A DNA stretch of 64,000 nucleotides, from positions 186,001-250,000 of the forward strand of contig DATENU010000022.1 of the NCBI GenBank assembly GCA_035274845.1, written 5' to 3'. The DNA is from Chthoniobacterales bacterium. Lineage in GTDB: Bacteria; Verrucomicrobiota; Verrucomicrobiia; Chthoniobacterales; UBA10450. Under the pieces are notes generated by a model, which did no database searches, was not told the DNA's origin, and was given only the letters and a program-made list of their open reading frames with translations. Positions 23,004 to 63,226 of the stretch are shown in pieces (the stretch's first letter is position 1; the number at the start of each line of letters is the position of its first letter). Position numbers and translations under genes: made by a program.

Positions 23004-23453
23004 CTATTCCGGTCCGCGCGCAAAGGTCGCGGCCTCGCTCAAAACCAGTTGGCCTTCCGCGACCGCCTGGCCCCGCACCGTAGCGATGACCTTAAACTGG
23101 ATAAGGTCTTCCATCTGTCCCAGCTTTTCCGCCTGCAAATCGATCTGCTCTTCCGGACGGACCGCTCGGAAAAATTTCATCGTCCGGATCGCGGAAAGGA
23201 GGAACAACGGTTTCGCGGTGTCCGGGTAACCCGAAGCCGCGGCAATGCCGGCCGCCTGCGCCAGCGCCTCGGTAATAATTACTCCGGGAACCAGGGGATT
23301 TCCCGGAAAGTGGCCCGCAAACATCGGATCGTCCGAAGAGAAGGAAGTTCTGGCCGAAACCGAGTGGCCCGGTTCACAGCTCACAATCTCGCGGACAAAG
23401 ACAAACGGCGGTCGATGAGGGAGGCCAAGAAAGTGACGTGTGACGTGTGACAA
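23004..23453 (-). CDS. FabZ-like 3-hydroxyacyl-ACP dehydratase
   Basis: This is a hot-dog fold dehydratase of 149 residues, the usual length of FabZ, acting in fatty acid elongation in the cytoplasm. PHRPPFVFVREI opens the domain. The motif AGHFPGNPLVPGVIITEAL contains the catalytic His and the Glu on the following helix. The stand-alone position, away from lpxA/lpxC, leaves open whether it serves lipid A or fatty acid synthesis or a specialised acyl chain. The best start is the TTG at 23451-23453 with AGGA eight bases upstream. The first residues (SHVTRHF) are encoded by the heptamer repeat, so the repeat has built the N-terminus. Confidence 0.8.
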   Translation of the reverse strand: MSHVTRHFLGLPHRPPFVFVREIVSCEPGHSVSARTSFSSDDPMFAGHFPGNPLVPGVIITEALAQAAGIAAASGYPDTAKPLFLLSAIRTMKFFRAVRPEEQIDLQAEKLGQMEDLIQFKVIATVRGQAVAEGQLVLSEAATFARGPE

Positions 23454-23527
23454 GTGACGAGATCCTGGCTCAGCGCTGCTTTTGCATTTTCACGTCACAC
23501 GTCACACGTCACATGTCACATGTCACT
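23432..23527. repeat. Converging heptamer repeat array
   Basis: The left part has about four units of the type TGTGACG/AGTGACG (23432-23458). The right part has five units of YGTCACA (23492-23527). The two parts are inverse complements separated by ~33 bp, so they can fold into a long hairpin. The left arm overlaps the start of the FabZ-like gene. The right arm ends 5 bp from the stop of the next lipoprotein gene. Confidence 0.85.
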
Positions 23528-26297: not shown

Positions 26298-26378
26298 GCG
26301 CGGGTAGTGAAATGGCAGACAAGTCCGTTTGAGGGACGTATGCCGCAAGGCATGGGGGTTCGAGTCCCCCTGAGCACT
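26298..26378 (+). pseudogene. Decayed tRNA-Leu(GAG) copy
   Basis: It matches the tRNA at 24924 over the D arm, anticodon loop (TTGAGGG), variable arm (TGCCGCAAGGCA) and T arm. The 5' acceptor is GCGCGGG but the 3' side reads TGAGCAC, so the acceptor stem cannot pair. The anticodon stem has one mismatch (TCCGT against ACGTA) and no CCA follows. It is unlikely to be functional. Confidence 0.75.
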
Positions 26379-26434
26379 GCCGGCTCTTTGGAGTTCTCCT
26401 TTCCGATTCGCCACGCTTCCGGCATAACCAAGCG

Positions 26435-29146
26435 ATGCCGGAGCAAACCATTGCCGGTTCGGACAATGTCTCGATTACCGTCATTACCTCCTCGCGGGAA
26501 TTTCTTTTCCGGTATCGTCCCGCCGGCACGATCGAGAATGCGATAAATATTTTTTTGGCCCTCGGCACGCTACGACAGATCGGCGCGGCGGTTCTTCCGT
26601 TCGCGCAATGGGCGGAAGGTTCGACGGTCTTTCTGCCTTTCAAAGGCGATCTGCTTCTCACGGCGGAAATCCGAAACGGCCTGATCGTTCCGATCATCCG
26701 CCGATGGGAACGTTGGCGCTGGAGCGAACGCGAGCAGACCCAGGCGTTCGATGTAACGGAGCAGAACGGCGAATTCACCTTTCACATTCCGCGCGCTGTC
26801 GTCGGCGACGTGGCCACGATCAATTTCGCGATCTTCGCCAAAGACCCGAACGCGAATGACGGCTGGGGCTGGTTTTGGGGTTGTTCGGACCGGACGGTCG
26901 TTTCGGGAACGGGCGACAAATTCATTCCGCATTACCACCAATTGCGCCTGGATGGGAATGCTCCGCTCCTGCTCTGGCGCAGCCGCCATGACCTCGCCAA
27001 AATCAGGACCCGCATCTACCAGCTGTTCGTCCGGCTCTTCGGCAATACAAACGAGACCCGCCGGCGAAACGGGACCCTGGCGGAAAATGGCGTCGGGAAA
27101 TTCGCGGACATCAACGACGACGCGCTCGCTTCAATCCGCGAGATGGGATTCACGCACGTCTGGCTGACCGGGGTTCTGCAACAGGCCACCGCCACTGATT
27201 ATTCGGAATTTGGCCAACCGGCAGACGATCCCGATTTGCTCAAGGGCCTCGCCGGCAGCCCTTACGCGATTAAGGATTATTTCGATGTCTGTCCGGATTA
27301 CGCCATGAACGCCGCCGATCGGATGAAGGAATTTCAGGAACTGGTCGAGCGGCTACACCACCACGGGCTAAAGGCGATCATCGATCTCGTGGCGAACCAT
27401 GTCGCGCGGAGCTACAGCTCGTGTGTCCGGCCTGATTGCAATTTCGGCACTTGCGGCAGCGCCGGCGCAGGAGATGACCGGACGAAGTTCTTCCACCCGC
27501 ACAACAACTTCTTTTACCTCACGCCGGACGCGAACGGGCCGCCGCTCCGCTTGCCTACGTTTCGCGATGGAGTCGCGCTCAGTCCAACCTGCCAGGCTGT
27601 AGCGGCGGTCTCGGACCGTCGAGCCGCGCAAGATGACGGCGGTCTGAGACCGCCGCTACAGAGCTGCGATGGAATCTTCGAGGGCGAGAGAACATTCGGC
27701 CGCGTCACCGGCAACAATTGCGTGAGCTGGACGCCGCAGCTTCACGATTGGTATGAGACGATCAAATTGAACTACGGCTTCGATTTCACCGATCCGACAA
27801 AGTCCGTCCGCGAATATCCAAATGCCTGGGCCCCGGACAAACCAATCCCAGACACCTGGAAAAAGGCCGATCAGGTGATCGCGTATTGGCAGTCGTTAGG
27901 CGTGGATGGTTTCCGCTGCGACATGGCTCACATGGTGCCGCCGGAAGTGTGGTCGTGGACCATCGCGGAAGCGCGGCGCCGCCAACCCGACATCTTCTTC
28001 ATGGGCGAAGCCTACGACGATGACCCGGCAAAGGTCCCGGGGACCGATCCGATTGTTTCCCAGCTCAACCATGGCCGCGGCAACGTGCTCTTCGACCTGT
28101 TGAATGCCGGGTTCAATGCCGTTTACGACGCCCCTGCCTATCGGGCGCTCAAACGCATTTACGACGGCTCCGGCTGGGCGAACGATATCGATCGCGAGAT
28201 TGCCGACGATTTCATCTGTCACAACTCCGTGCGTTACGCGGAAAACCACGACGAAGTCCGGCTCGCGGCACGCGGCGAATGGGGCAGCATTGGAATGAAT
28301 GTGGGCCGGCCAGTCGCCGCGATTCTTTACGGATTATCGCGCGGCGCGATCATGCTTTACAACGGCCAGGAAATTGGTGAACCGGCTGAGGGTGCGGAAG
28401 GATTTGGCGGGGATGACGCGCGCACTTCGATCTTCGACTATTGGTCGATGCCGGAGTTCGTGAAATGGGTAAACGATCATCAATACGATGGCGGACGTCT
28501 TTCGCCCGAACAGGATGAGCTAAGGCATTTCTACGGCCGGCTCATCAATCTCGTCGGCGAGCCTGCGTTTCGAGACGGAAAATTCTTTCCGCTAAATTCG
28601 GCGAACCACGACAACCCGCATTTCGGGCGAATGCCGGGCGAATCGGCGAGCGGCCACTGGCTCTATGCCTTTCTCCGTTACGATCCCCTGACACTGCAGC
28701 GCTTTCTCGTGGTCGCGAATTTGCATCCTCAGCTCACCTTCAGTGAGATTAAAGTTTGTCTCCCGGCTGAGGCGCGGCGTTTCCTCGATCTTGCGCCCGA
28801 CGCGAAGCCAACGCTGATTGAGCGACTCTCCGGCTCGACCGGCGAGATCAGCGACGGCGCCATCCGCATCGCGGAGACACCGCCGCTCTCCGCATTTTAC
28901 TTCGAAATTCAGCTAGCCGCGGAGACCACTGGCAGCTTCGAGGAGCGCAACCTGCGTAGTCGCTTTAACTGGCCGTCACCGCTACGAGCACCGCTTTCTG
29001 CACGTGAAGCCGATTCTCGGATTGATCGAAAATCGTCTGGGCGTGCGCTTCCAGCGTCGCGTCGTCGATTTCCTGGCCGCGATGGGCGGGAAGACAATGC
29101 ATCACCAGCGCGTCCGGTTTCGCCAATTTCACCAGCGCTTCGTTGA
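26435..29146 (+). CDS. GH13 alpha-amylase-family enzyme
   Basis: A 903-residue glycoside hydrolase of the alpha-amylase clan acting on alpha-glucans. An N-terminal ~190-residue non-catalytic part precedes the TIM barrel. Barrel motifs are AIIDLVANHVAR (region I), VDGFRCDMAHMV with the nucleophile Asp (II), FFMGEAYDDD with the acid/base Glu (III) and VRYAENHDEVR with the third Asp (IV). Between regions I and II, 22 residues (AVAAVSDRR to RPPLQ) come from a REPIN-like palindrome inserted in frame. The family-like sequence ends near SAFYFEIQL (~28910). The remaining ~75 residues are basic and Ser/Pro-rich and run antisense into argF for 182 bp, so the original stop was probably lost. No signal peptide is seen. 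Confidence 0.87.
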   Translation: MPEQTIAGSDNVSITVITSSREFLFRYRPAGTIENAINIFLALGTLRQIGAAVLPFAQWAEGSTVFLPFKGDLLLTAEIRNGLIVPIIRRWERWRWSEREQTQAFDVTEQNGEFTFHIPRAVVGDVATINFAIFAKDPNANDGWGWFWGCSDRTVVSGTGDKFIPHYHQLRLDGNAPLLLWRSRHDLAKIRTRIYQLFVRLFGNTNETRRRNGTLAENGVGKFADINDDALASIREMGFTHVWLTGVLQQATATDYSEFGQPADDPDLLKGLAGSPYAIKDYFDVCPDYAMNAADRMKEFQELVERLHHHGLKAIIDLVANHVARSYSSCVRPDCNFGTCGSAGAGDDRTKFFHPHNNFFYLTPDANGPPLRLPTFRDGVALSPTCQAVAAVSDRRAAQDDGGLRPPLQSCDGIFEGERTFGRVTGNNCVSWTPQLHDWYETIKLNYGFDFTDPTKSVREYPNAWAPDKPIPDTWKKADQVIAYWQSLGVDGFRCDMAHMVPPEVWSWTIAEARRRQPDIFFMGEAYDDDPAKVPGTDPIVSQLNHGRGNVLFDLLNAGFNAVYDAPAYRALKRIYDGSGWANDIDREIADDFICHNSVRYAENHDEVRLAARGEWGSIGMNVGRPVAAILYGLSRGAIMLYNGQEIGEPAEGAEGFGGDDARTSIFDYWSMPEFVKWVNDHQYDGGRLSPEQDELRHFYGRLINLVGEPAFRDGKFFPLNSANHDNPHFGRMPGESASGHWLYAFLRYDPLTLQRFLVVANLHPQLTFSEIKVCLPAEARRFLDLAPDAKPTLIERLSGSTGEISDGAIRIAETPPLSAFYFEIQLAAETTGSFEERNLRSRFNWPSPLRAPLSAREADSRIDRKSSGRALPASRRRFPGRDGREDNASPARPVSPISPALR
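27597..27661. repeat. REPIN-like palindrome inside the GH13 gene
   Basis: Arms 27597-27617 and 27641-27661 are inverse complements with one mismatch over 21 bp. Each arm starts GTAGCGGCGG from its outer end and can itself fold as a hairpin (GGCGGTC/GACC type). The element is read without stops in the enzyme's frame. Confidence 0.9.
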
Positions 29147-32975: not shown

Positions 32976-34325
32976 TTAACCACCGAGCGAACTCGGATCG
33001 CTCAAATCGCCCTTGTTAAACTCCACGTACTCTTCCGTCAGATCGCTCGTGTAAAGGACGCAATCATGGCGGCCGTTGTTCAGGAAAATATGAAGATCGA
33101 ACTCGGGCCCGGCCACGATGGCTCCGAGCGTCTGCAACGCGACGCGAGTCGGTTGCCCGCGGCGAACGGCAAACGTGACCTTCTTCTTCCCTGGCCGGCT
33201 GTAGCCTACGTCCACTTTGCTCTCGTCGACCTTCGCCGGGGAATAGCCCATCGCGCACAGGATGCGGCCCCAGTTCGGATCGCCGCCGAACCAGCTCGTT
33301 TTCACCAGCGTGCTGTTCGCCACGGAGCGCGCGACCGCCTCGGCGTCAGCCGCCGTTCGAGCTCCATGGACGCGCAGGATTATGAAACGCGTAACGCCCT
33401 CGCCATCGCGCACGATCATCTTCGCCAGCTCAAGCGTTACAAAGTTGAGCGCTTGTTGAAAAAGCCCGAGACCCGCCGGCCCATTGCCAGCCAAACCATT
33501 CGCCAAAATCAGCACCGTATCGTTGGTGCTCATGTCGCCATCGACCGTGATACGGTTGAAGCTTTGCGCGACGGCGCGCTCCAAGGCAGTTTTCAAATCG
33601 TCGCTCGCAATCGCCGCGTCGGTCGTCAGGAATCCGAGCATCGTTGCGTGCGGCGCCATCCCTGGCTGAATCATTCCAGCGCCTTTGCAAATTCCACCGA
33701 TTCGAACGGGAACGCCGCCAAGCTCGAACTCAACGGCGATCTCTTTCCGGCGCGTGTCGGAAGTCATGATCGCTTCGGCGGTTTCGCGAGCGGCCTCCGG
33801 GCTGCGCGCCAGTCGCTGCGCGGCATCCAGAATCCCGCGCTCCACATTCGCCATCGGCATCGGCACCCCGATCCGGCCCGTCGACGCGACGAGGACGTCC
33901 TTCGGGGTAATTTTCCTGTAGCGGCGGTCTCTGACCGTCGACCGATCGCCAGTAATTTTATTTCGGCGGTCAGAGACCGCCGCTACAGCGGACGCCGTCC
34001 AGCGCGTCATTTCCTGAGCGTCGGCCAACCCACGAGCACCCGTGCATGCGTTGGCGTTTCCGGAATTGACCACAATGCCCCGCACGAAGCGACGGCGGCA
34101 ATTTTTCGCGCTCACTTTTACCGGCGCCGCGCAAACCTGGTTGGTGGTGAACATCCCGGCGACCGCCGCCGGAATATCGGAGACAATCAACGCGAGATCG
34201 CGCTTCCGGCCTTTCTCCGAGCCTTTGCCGGTCCCGAGCCGCTTAATGTCGCAAAAAACGGCGGCGGCCTTGAATCCGCGAGGGGCGCAAATCGAGCCGT
34301 CAATTTTTCGGAACGAGTCCTTCAC
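32976..34325 (-). CDS. argJ: Glutamate N-acetyltransferase / ornithine acetyltransferase, with REPIN insertion
   Basis: It transfers acetyl from acetylornithine to glutamate (cyclic pathway) and may also use acetyl-CoA. Landmarks are GMFTTNQVCAAPV, IVVNSGNANACTG, DVLVASTGRIGVPMP, GGICKGAGMIQPGMAPHATML with the Thr of autoprocessing, ITVDGDMSTNDTV and GGDPNWGRIL. The start is the GTG at 34323-34325, overlapping the argC TGA (GTGA); the frame is open further to 34370. Between DAQEMTRWTASA and KITPKDVLVAS lie ~24 extra residues (VAAVSDRR to RDRRYR) coded by a palindromic element. They sit in the alpha subunit, before the cleavage site. No frameshift results, so the enzyme is probably still active. 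Confidence 0.94.
   Translation of the reverse strand: MKDSFRKIDGSICAPRGFKAAAVFCDIKRLGTGKGSEKGRKRDLALIVSDIPAAVAGMFTTNQVCAAPVKVSAKNCRRRFVRGIVVNSGNANACTGARGLADAQEMTRWTASAVAAVSDRRNKITGDRSTVRDRRYRKITPKDVLVASTGRIGVPMPMANVERGILDAAQRLARSPEAARETAEAIMTSDTRRKEIAVEFELGGVPVRIGGICKGAGMIQPGMAPHATMLGFLTTDAAIASDDLKTALERAVAQSFNRITVDGDMSTNDTVLILANGLAGNGPAGLGLFQQALNFVTLELAKMIVRDGEGVTRFIILRVHGARTAADAEAVARSVANSTLVKTSWFGGDPNWGRILCAMGYSPAKVDESKVDVGYSRPGKKKVTFAVRRGQPTRVALQTLGAIVAGPEFDLHIFLNNGRHDCVLYTSDLTEEYVEFNKGDLSDPSSLGG
33916..33988. repeat. REPIN-like palindrome inside argJ
   Basis: Arms 33916-33937 and 33967-33988 are perfect inverse complements (22 bp), each beginning CTGTAGCGGCGG from the outside. They are separated by 29 bp. 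The frame used in argJ is the only one of three on the left arm free of TAG or TGA. Same family as 27597-27661. Confidence 0.93.
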
Positions 34326-35347
34326 AGCAATCCCGCGGTCTGCTCGTAACCGCGCATCAAATTGAAACATTGGATCGCCTGGCCGCTGGCGCCTTTGAGC
34401 AAATTATCCTCGGCGCTCATGACGATGAGGCGGCCCGTGCGTGGATCGTGGCGCCAGGCGATTTCGATGACGTTGGAGCCGATGACGTTCTTCGTATCAG
34501 GCAAGGCCTTCTCTCCCAGCAGGCGAACAAAAGGAGCGTCCGCGTAGGCGTTCTGGAACGCCGCGCCGATGCGTTGTCCGTCCGTCGGCGTGAGATAGAG
34601 AGTCGTGAGGATACCGCGATTCACCGGGACCAAATGGGGCGTGAATTGAATCTTGATCGAGCTTCCAGCTGCGATCGACAATTCCTGCTCGATCTCGGCC
34701 AGATGCCGATGTTTCGGCACGCCATAGGGCCGGACGCTTTCGTTACATTCCACAAAGAGATAATCGAGCTCAGCCTTCCGGCCGGCTCCACTCACCCCGC
34801 TCAGGCTCGAAGCGATGATGCTGCCCGGCTCGATCAATTTCTCTCGCAGGAGCGGGATCAACGGCAAAAGAATACTCGTCGGATAACAACCCGGGCAGGC
34901 GATCAAGCGCGCCTCCCGAATCTTGTCCGAATAAATCTCCGGCAAGCCATAGACCGCGCCGTCGAGCAAATCGGGCGCGCCGTGTTCGTGACCGTAGAAC
35001 TCCCGATAGATTTCCGGGTTTCTGATCCGGAAGTCCGCGCTGAGATCGATGACGCGCGCGCCCAGTTGCAGAAGCGGCGCGGCGAACTCGGCCGCCACGC
35101 CATGGGGCAAAGCAAGGAAGACGACCTCGGCGTCGGCGCTCAACTTTTCGGCGGATGGTTCGCTGAACCGGACCGAGTGCGCGGCGGAATGCAAACCAGT
35201 GCGCGGGAAAACGTCGGCGACACTCCTGCCCGCAAACTGCCTCGAGGTACAGGCCACGAGCTCCGCGCCCGGATGCCGCAAAAGCAGCCGGACCAGCTCC
35301 TCGCCGGTGTATCCGGAAGCGCCCACCACCGCGACCCTGGTTTTCAT
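34322..35347 (-). CDS. argC: N-acetyl-gamma-glutamyl-phosphate reductase
   Basis: It reduces the phosphate made by ArgB, using NADPH, to the semialdehyde. The 341 residues start MKTRVAVVGASGYTGEELVRLL with the nucleotide loop. VFLALPHGVA lies near 75, the catalytic Cys is in LIACPGCYPTS near 145, and SGVSGAGRKA near 180. The C-terminal HRHLAEIEQEL motif is also present. The ATG at 35345-35347 is chosen because the upstream extension runs into a palindrome. It heads the argCJBD operon, whose promoter should lie in the ~180-bp spacer to floA. Confidence 0.96.
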   Translation of the reverse strand: MKTRVAVVGASGYTGEELVRLLLRHPGAELVACTSRQFAGRSVADVFPRTGLHSAAHSVRFSEPSAEKLSADAEVVFLALPHGVAAEFAAPLLQLGARVIDLSADFRIRNPEIYREFYGHEHGAPDLLDGAVYGLPEIYSDKIREARLIACPGCYPTSILLPLIPLLREKLIEPGSIIASSLSGVSGAGRKAELDYLFVECNESVRPYGVPKHRHLAEIEQELSIAAGSSIKIQFTPHLVPVNRGILTTLYLTPTDGQRIGAAFQNAYADAPFVRLLGEKALPDTKNVIGSNVIEIAWRHDPRTGRLIVMSAEDNLLKGASGQAIQCFNLMRGYEQTAGLL

Positions 35348-35398
35348 TGCGCGCAATGCGTATTCCGTCTCGCGGGGATTGCAACGAAAGATTGCGTT

Positions 35399-35481
35399 GG
35401 TAGGGACGTCGCGCTGCGGCGTCCGCCCAGCGAACCACTCTGGGCGCACTACCGCGGACGCCGCAGCGCGGCGTCCCTACC
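35399..35481. repeat. REPIN-like palindrome between argC and floA
   Basis: Arms 35399-35426 and 35454-35481 are inverse complements over 28 bp with one mismatch. Each begins GGTAGGGACG from the outside and has an internal hairpin (GGACG..CGTCC). It sits 52 bp upstream of argC and 48 bp upstream of floA, where promoters or 5' leaders are expected. Confidence 0.92.
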
Positions 35482-35529
35482 ATTCGGAATAGACTTCACG
35501 TGCCGAATCGGCCCCGCTAATCTGCCCCC

Positions 35530-37180: not shown

Positions 37181-37261
37181 TGTAGCGACGCCGCTCTGTC
37201 GGCGTACGGAAGCCGAAATACAGGCGGCGCGTTCTTACGGCGACAGAGCGCCGTCGCTACA
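37181..37261. repeat. REPIN-like palindrome between convergent genes
   Basis: Arms 37181-37206 and 37236-37261 are inverse complements over 26 bp with two mismatches. Each begins TGTAGCGACG from the outside and each has an inner hairpin (ACGCCG/CGGCGT). It lies two bases from the pbpC stop and 20 bp after the stop of the 36552 gene, so it may also act as a two-way terminator. Confidence 0.9.
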
Positions 37262-61072: not shown

Positions 61073-61132
61073 TACGCCGACAGAGCGGCGTCGCTACAAC
61101 AAGGCATCGACGGTCTGAGACCGCCGCTACAG
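61073..61132. repeat. Two single REP-like arms in tandem downstream of rpsA
   Basis: 61073-61098 is an exact copy of the inner arm type of the 37181 element (TACGCCGACAGAGCGGCG...). 61112-61132 is an exact copy of the arm type of the 27597 element (GGTCTGAGACCGCCGCTACA). Both have the same orientation, so this is not a REPIN pair but two different REP-like units in a row. They lie 11-71 bp from the rpsA stop. Confidence 0.85.
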
Positions 61133-62823: not shown

Positions 62824-63226
62824 ATGGGTGAGTTTTTACCGCACGCGGCGCTGGGGCCGCTTTCTGGCTGTCACGCAGGCGCTCCTTACGCCCGGCAGCC
62901 CAGAAAGGGGGAGCGGAATAATAGCCTGAAAGCAGCCTGGGTCAACCGGGGAGACGGGCCTCCTTTTCCCTCGTTGTCCTGGCCGTCCCCGTCCTCCTGG
63001 TCGTCCTCGTCCTCGTCCTCGCCATCGGCTTGGTCGCCGGCACTCGAGCACGAGCACGAGGACGAGCACGAGCACGAGGACGAGGAGGAGGACGAGCACG
63101 AGGACGAGGAGGAGGAGGACGAATCTGCCCTACCAACCTGCCGCGCCTCCTTGAGCCCCGCCAAAATCTCCCCATATTGAACATGTCCGTCGTAGCGTGT
63201 CCCTCGCTCTTAACCGGACGTTTCGA
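62824..63226. other. Spacer with large converging simple-repeat arms
   Basis: 403 bp between rpsA and the thioredoxin-like gene, which diverge. It must hold both promoters. From 62986 to 63023 the strand is GTCCTCGTCCTCG-like. From 63044 to 63121 it is made of GAGCAC and GAGGAC hexamers. The two are inverse complements and can form a long hairpin. No supported gene is present; the open frames here code only Leu-Val or Ser-Cys runs. Confidence 0.75.
62986..63121. repeat. Converging hexamer repeats (CGTCCT / GAGCAC-GAGGAC)
   Basis: The right arm has about thirteen hexamers of GAGCAC, GAGGAC or GAGGAG. The left arm has about five complementary units (CGTCCT). The unit resembles the short array at 51644-51663. 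Confidence 0.8.

Follow-up and report, generated by a model that had tools for sequence, protein, structure and literature searches.

How does a repetitive palindrome come to lie inside the coding sequence of a conserved enzyme, and what becomes of that enzyme? The question is raised by argJ in a 64,000-nucleotide stretch (the window) of a Chthoniobacterales genome of 4.54 Mb, referred to here as G000. An original prediction had described, at positions 33916-33988 of the window, a REPIN-like element with perfect 22-bp inverted arms inside this gene, and both the coordinates and the arms were verified. The element is a GTAG-type REPIN, an inverted pair of repetitive extragenic palindromes (REPs). 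Very probably, a RAYT-mobilised REPIN entered argJ in frame and was tolerated, and the enzyme still works.

The argJ element and the protein that carries it

The inverted repeat is perfect over the 22 bp of each arm and, when extended to 26 nt, still matches at 96% with 21 nt between the arms; folding of the strand gives a z of -9.9 relative to shuffled sequences (Table 1). One frame of the 5' arm leads to TAG, one leads to TGA, and one is open, and argJ, as had been predicted, reads the open one (GTA GCG GCG GTC TCT GAC, or VAAVSD). In ArgJ from five congeners (G001, G003, G005, G006, and G007), a canonical loop connects a helix to the strand "DVLVCSTGRIG". Aligned with these proteins, G000 ArgJ shows a net gain of 69 bp or 23 residues (V129-Y151), which is exactly GTAG...CTAC; the predicted in-frame insertion is confirmed, with its length corrected from about 24 residues to 23. 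The palindrome-free congeners lack these residues, and the relatives with similar ones are only those carrying palindrome-derived DNA at the same site. The insertion site is ~8 residues before the STGRIG motif. The autoprocessing threonine, rightly placed after the insert by the original prediction, is T243, ~90 residues further on, and the beta chains of solved ArgJ proteins start at query residue 243.

A structural model of ArgJ (46 sequences; predicted template modeling score 0.89) superposes on ornithine acetyltransferase 1vz6 over 373 residues, with a Z of 45 and a root-mean-square deviation of 1.9. The insert maps to the helix-to-strand loop, where it is predicted to prolong the helix and then to form a less certain loop, the fold being kept in the model. 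The ratio of nonsynonymous to synonymous substitution rates (dN/dS) between G000 argJ and its congeners is 0.12-0.15, similar to that of insert-free pairs. The whole frame is open, T243 and the near-invariant residues are retained, and the genome has only one argJ match. The insert is tolerated, and both the predicted fold and selective constraint are kept. Judging from the open frames and this constraint, the insert is presumably translated, and its effect was probably close to neutral.

The REP family, its likely transposase, and its genic copies

Copies of the arm number 5 in the window, vs. 0 expected, and 107 in the genome at up to two mismatches, vs. 0 for a reversed control. The REP copies of G000, at least 107, group into 67 elements, among which the inverted "+-" pair is the most frequent arrangement (21 of 67). 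In the repeat, GTAG + CGGCGGTCTCTGACCG(TCG), the GTAG tag adjoins the palindrome. All 93 good copies have a T directly before GTAG, and in 92 of them that T is itself preceded by a C or T. Since CT is the cleavage site of TnpA-REP enzymes (PMC8266576), this context is as expected from cleavage by such enzymes. Contig C8 carries a Y1 transposase (RAYT) gene (C8:22729-23037) with the HUH motif "MPDHFHVF" and the tyrosine motif "YVRENP". On each side of the gene lie two copies of the argJ-type REP, in all two direct and two inverted ones, which makes it a REPtron. The copies, their inverted pairing, the GTAG tag, and a RAYT bearing the same REPs bear out the REPIN identity first suggested for the argJ element. 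The C8 RAYT is likely the cognate of the argJ-type REPs, and we infer that it moved the argJ copy.

The paired elements of this genome are mostly extragenic (26 of 34). The other eight lie in long frames with coding surroundings, namely those of UvrA, an FAD/Fe-S oxidoreductase, RNase R, MetH, DnaE, a helicase, a GH13-like protein (the element at 27597-27661), and ArgJ; host names other than ArgJ come from sequence reading, that of MetH also from Pfam in a congener. Nearly all eight inserts start with VAAVSDRR, and all eight are in frame. Non-genic pairs have on average 1.96 of 6 frames open, so that ~11% of random genic insertions would be open and in phase; the chance of eight in eight is then ~2e-8, assuming that no disrupted gene was missed, and serves as a measure of selection against out-of-frame insertions. 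Ten elements flanked by coding DNA on either side were inspected as candidates for out-of-frame disruption, and all lie between different intact genes. A FolC-like match (L117 2315, 3 mismatches) was discarded as a chance hit, as were L117 8796 and L119 3476 because their coding status was doubtful. Per intergenic copy there are 0.31 in-frame genic copies, vs. 0.88 expected without further selection (~89% of the window is coding), so, as a rough estimate, host proteins may tolerate about one in-frame insertion in three.

Six of the seven further genic sites have an in-frame insert in at least one congener as well, often from other palindrome families with peptides such as VAAVYDRRN..GGHRPPLQ, VGRDSVEP.., VGTPRCGV.., MWERPQRRD..DRGTEAPPTLQ, and VIPSEVEES... 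The exception is the RNase R site, at which no congener has an in-frame insert. At the GH13-like site five congeners have one at the same position, and part of the shared sites may reflect common descent. The UvrA frame (L106, G000:C10) also holds, beside its REPIN, two further in-frame repeat peptides of the GRVGVSPA...GQDAHPT type.

Recurrence at the ArgJ loop and rival explanations

The ArgJ loop was surveyed in 83 genomes of the family; the relatives are mostly draft metagenome assemblies. Palindrome-derived in-frame inserts occupy the same loop in six genera: G000 (g1), G019 (g13), G017 (g11), G061 (g4), G030 (g6), and G058 with G060 (g14). That of G030, where one arm is followed by an assembly gap, is counted with reserve. 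Inverted-repeat scores exceed those of shuffled sequences in the six complete inserts, weakly so in the eroded ones of G019 (p ~0.04) and G061 (0.01). The inserts of G017 and G019 have arms of one type and are both 60 bp long, and those of G058 and G060 derive from an unrelated palindrome. The junctions vary, lying ~4 residues earlier in G017 and slightly later in G061; those of G000 and G019 coincide in sequence context (GC-TGTAG). Similar inserts occur in ArgJ of Spartobacteria palsa_1382 (L141), Centralia_MAG_126 (L176), L145, and L146, and none was seen in the other Verrucomicrobiota and outgroup ArgJ proteins read. An ArgJ tree built without the insert requires at least four changes on well-supported branches and nests G000 among insert-free congeners.

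These observations are best explained by the following scheme. Two inverted GTAG-tagged REPs form a single miniature element, for which a single-tyrosine HUH transposase of the RAYT type, most likely that of C8, would act in trans. Its entry point in ArgJ would be the loop from a surface helix to the strand leading into the STGRIG motif. The gene would have survived because the 5' arm is open in its GTA frame, the spacer has no stop in that frame either, and the 69 bp are divisible by three; translation would then yield an ArgJ with 23 extra residues, which form a prolonged helix and a loop and leave the enzyme working. More generally, elements may land widely, with selection keeping the roughly one-ninth that are in frame, at the few protein places that tolerate extra residues. 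Such places would therefore be refilled, by REPs of several families and by stop-free RAYT-like transposase genes.

The shared site could instead reflect common descent, if an old insert from the family ancestor had been lost by the insert-free relatives. Single-strand transposases (IS200/IS605) are able to excise precisely, which makes such losses easier to accept, and the junction context common to G000 and G019, as well as the resemblance between the G017 and G019 inserts, would also be in keeping with an ancestral insert. On the other hand, several losses back to the canonical loop length would be required, and the tree forces its changes on well-supported branches. The arms are perfect in G000 and eroded in G019 and G061, the G017 and G061 junctions differ, and the palindrome of G058 and G060 is unrelated. 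One ancestral insertion is thus considered unlikely. Selection for the insert, whose mRNA hairpin or extra peptide might tune argJ expression or ArgJ activity, is quite improbable: the hairpin is strong, and inserts in the same loop of six genera, close to STGRIG, could suit such a role, but the five congeners, like the remaining ArgJ proteins read in the phylum, do without one, the inserts differ in length and sequence, the same element occurs in many unrelated proteins, and tolerance alone explains the pattern.

It is highly improbable that the insert inactivated ArgJ and that the gene is a decaying pseudogene. The longer branch of G000 would fit decay, but the frame is fully open, dN/dS is that of insert-free pairs, Thr243 and the near-invariant residues are kept, and there is no other argJ match in the genome. 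Removal of the insert at the RNA or protein level, or its skipping by the ribosome, would yield a normal-length enzyme, and a strong hairpin does span the whole insert; however, every genic copy is open and restores the phase, which removal would not require, and Pfam scans found no Hint (intein) splicing domain in ArgJ, with its insert of 23 residues, or in the transposase-bearing enzymes described below. Such processing is scarcely credible. A few points nevertheless weigh against in-frame entry into a fully working ArgJ. The G000 branch is longer than that of most congeners (0.23 vs. 0.09-0.14), and alanine replaces the cysteine of VLVCSTGRIG; the enzyme may therefore be mildly affected. 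In addition, the coding-flank test is imperfect (the L108 element was called non-coding despite an open frame), and some disrupted genes were possibly missed.

Table 1. Positions of the argJ element, its relatives in the window, and the transposase-bearing enzymes of G000 (window coordinates unless a contig is given)
Feature	Position	Strand	Description	Basis
argJ, host gene	32976..34370	minus	464 aa; bifunctional ornithine acetyltransferase/N-acetylglutamate synthase	Pfam ArgJ, E 1.8e-127
REPIN with its CT/AG borders	33916..33988	minus	in frame inside argJ	inverted arms, copies, fold, open frame
Inserted unit GTAG...CTAC	33918..33986	minus	69 bp; codes V129-Y151	net difference vs. insert-free congeners
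5' arm (argJ sense)	33967..33988	minus	CTGTAGCGGCGGTCTCTGACCG; open in GTA frame only (VAAVSD)	
Spacer	33938..33966	minus	29 bp separating the perfect arms; open in argJ frame	
3' arm (argJ sense)	33916..33937	minus	CGGTCAGAGACCGCCGCTACAG; translated VRDRRYR	
Second REPIN of the same family	27597..27661	plus	in frame in GH13-like (alpha-amylase type) gene	
GH13-like gene	26333..29143	plus	stop-free frame of 937 aa; contains the second REPIN	name by sequence reading
Lone REP	61111..61130	minus	outside coding frames	
ValS with embedded RAYT-like HUH Y1 transposase (L295)	G000:C20:127339-129264			repeat peptides both sides
CarB with embedded RAYT-like HUH Y1 transposase (L296)	G000:C9:43326-45275			repeat peptides both sides

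The window holds other palindromes as well. One of another family, with 29-nt arms (TGGTAGGGACGTCGCGCTGCGGCGTCCGC), occupies 35398-35482, at the argC frame's 5' end and ahead of the probable Met start; the peptide of this palindrome, VGTPRCGV, reappears as an in-frame insert in an oxidoreductase of a congener. A further GTAG-type palindrome (TGTAGCGACGCC...GGCGTC..CGCTACA) is at 37181-37261, just past the 3' end of a penicillin-binding-protein-like gene, and low-complexity inverted repeats are found at 23433-23519 (GTGACGTGTGACGT) and 62969-63120 (GAGGACGAGCAC).

Transposases inside enzymes and relation to known systems

In G000, ValS and CarB, of 1165 and 1318 aa, are each a single open frame with a whole transposase inside, in which the HUH and Tyr motifs are present; a second ValS or CarB copy was looked for in the genome and none was found. 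No congener has a transposase in its ValS, and among congeners only G006 has one in CarB, at the same site with different flanking repeats. Congeners carry embedded transposases in MetH (G003 and G006; L298, L299), RecG (G005, G006, and G007; L301, L303, L304), and Sua5 (G003; L300), and at the RecG and CarB sites elements with differing flanking repeats occupy different species. Between the MetH pair and the G005/G007 RecG pair, the transposase part shows a dN of 0.14-0.17 and a dS that is saturated or 2.8, which places its frame under constraint, although part of this constraint may predate insertion. A search of 388 genomes of the phylum with the ValS-embedded transposase gave stop-free frames of at least 500 aa for 52 of the best 150 matches, a proportion that is not a rate. 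Among the matches read, Pfam identified as hosts ValS of another family (same site), LeuS twice (same region), CarB (same site), HypF, PriA, IspG/GcpE, HsdR, and MmeI- or Eco57I-type methylases.

The argJ element itself is of the same sort as the intragenic GTAG REPs already published. The expectation in the original prediction that REPs are almost always extragenic fails for this phylum: the main text of Di Nocera et al. (2013; PMC3733652) reports intragenic GTAG REPs, most of them in Opitutus terrae (also Verrucomicrobia), as single or paired palindromes that add 20 to 30 residues within the reading frames of genes of known identity, uvrA and DnaE-type polymerases among them, as here. That text has one same-site case, recB of two Xanthomonas, and does not describe any argJ case, the reuse of one site by several families across genera, or embedded transposases. 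The predicted likeness to the Rickettsia palindromic elements (RPEs) holds in that both are in-frame palindromes in many unrelated conserved proteins, housekeeping ones included; RPEs, however, carry CGTC at their ends and lack a dedicated transposase (PMC3733652), whereas the argJ family has a GTAG tag and a RAYT. Like the REPINs of Pseudomonas fluorescens SBW25, the argJ family consists of inverted REP doublets in many copies, with a RAYT flanked by REPs (PMC3116915). In SBW25, 14 of ~1,067 REP 16-mers overlap genes, in contrast to the 8 of 34 genic, in-frame pairs of G000. Both the C8 RAYT and the embedded transposases have the HUH and Y..NP motifs of the TnpA-Y1/RAYT superfamily; a survey of that superfamily set its long members aside, taking them for fusions or annotation errors (PMC6006769), whereas the long frames of Verrucomicrobiota are conserved enzymes with a transposase inside. 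No description of in-frame transposases embedded in enzymes was found in the open literature, subscription papers lying outside the search. As far as that literature shows, two findings are apparently new, namely that several palindrome families have repeatedly used a single protein site in different genera and that transposases lie in frame within essential enzymes.

A broader proposal, about as likely as not, is that Verrucomicrobiota harbor a class of translation-transparent transposons. These would be RAYT-like HUH transposase genes with flanking repeats, stop-free throughout in one frame, which persist as domains within single-copy essential enzymes (ValS, CarB, LeuS, MetH, RecG), expressed by the host gene, and under purifying selection there. 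Together with related families, they would seed REP/REPIN inserts, the argJ one among them, at a restricted number of protein sites that allow insertion.

With these cases, "repetitive extragenic palindromes" become a coding phenomenon in a large environmental phylum. Proteins of such length are likely thrown out as annotation errors in protein-family surveys. The insertions amount to natural, repeated, and parallel experiments showing at which places essential enzymes can accept between 20 and 250 additional residues, and they suggest that a transposase may persist by riding in frame within an essential gene.
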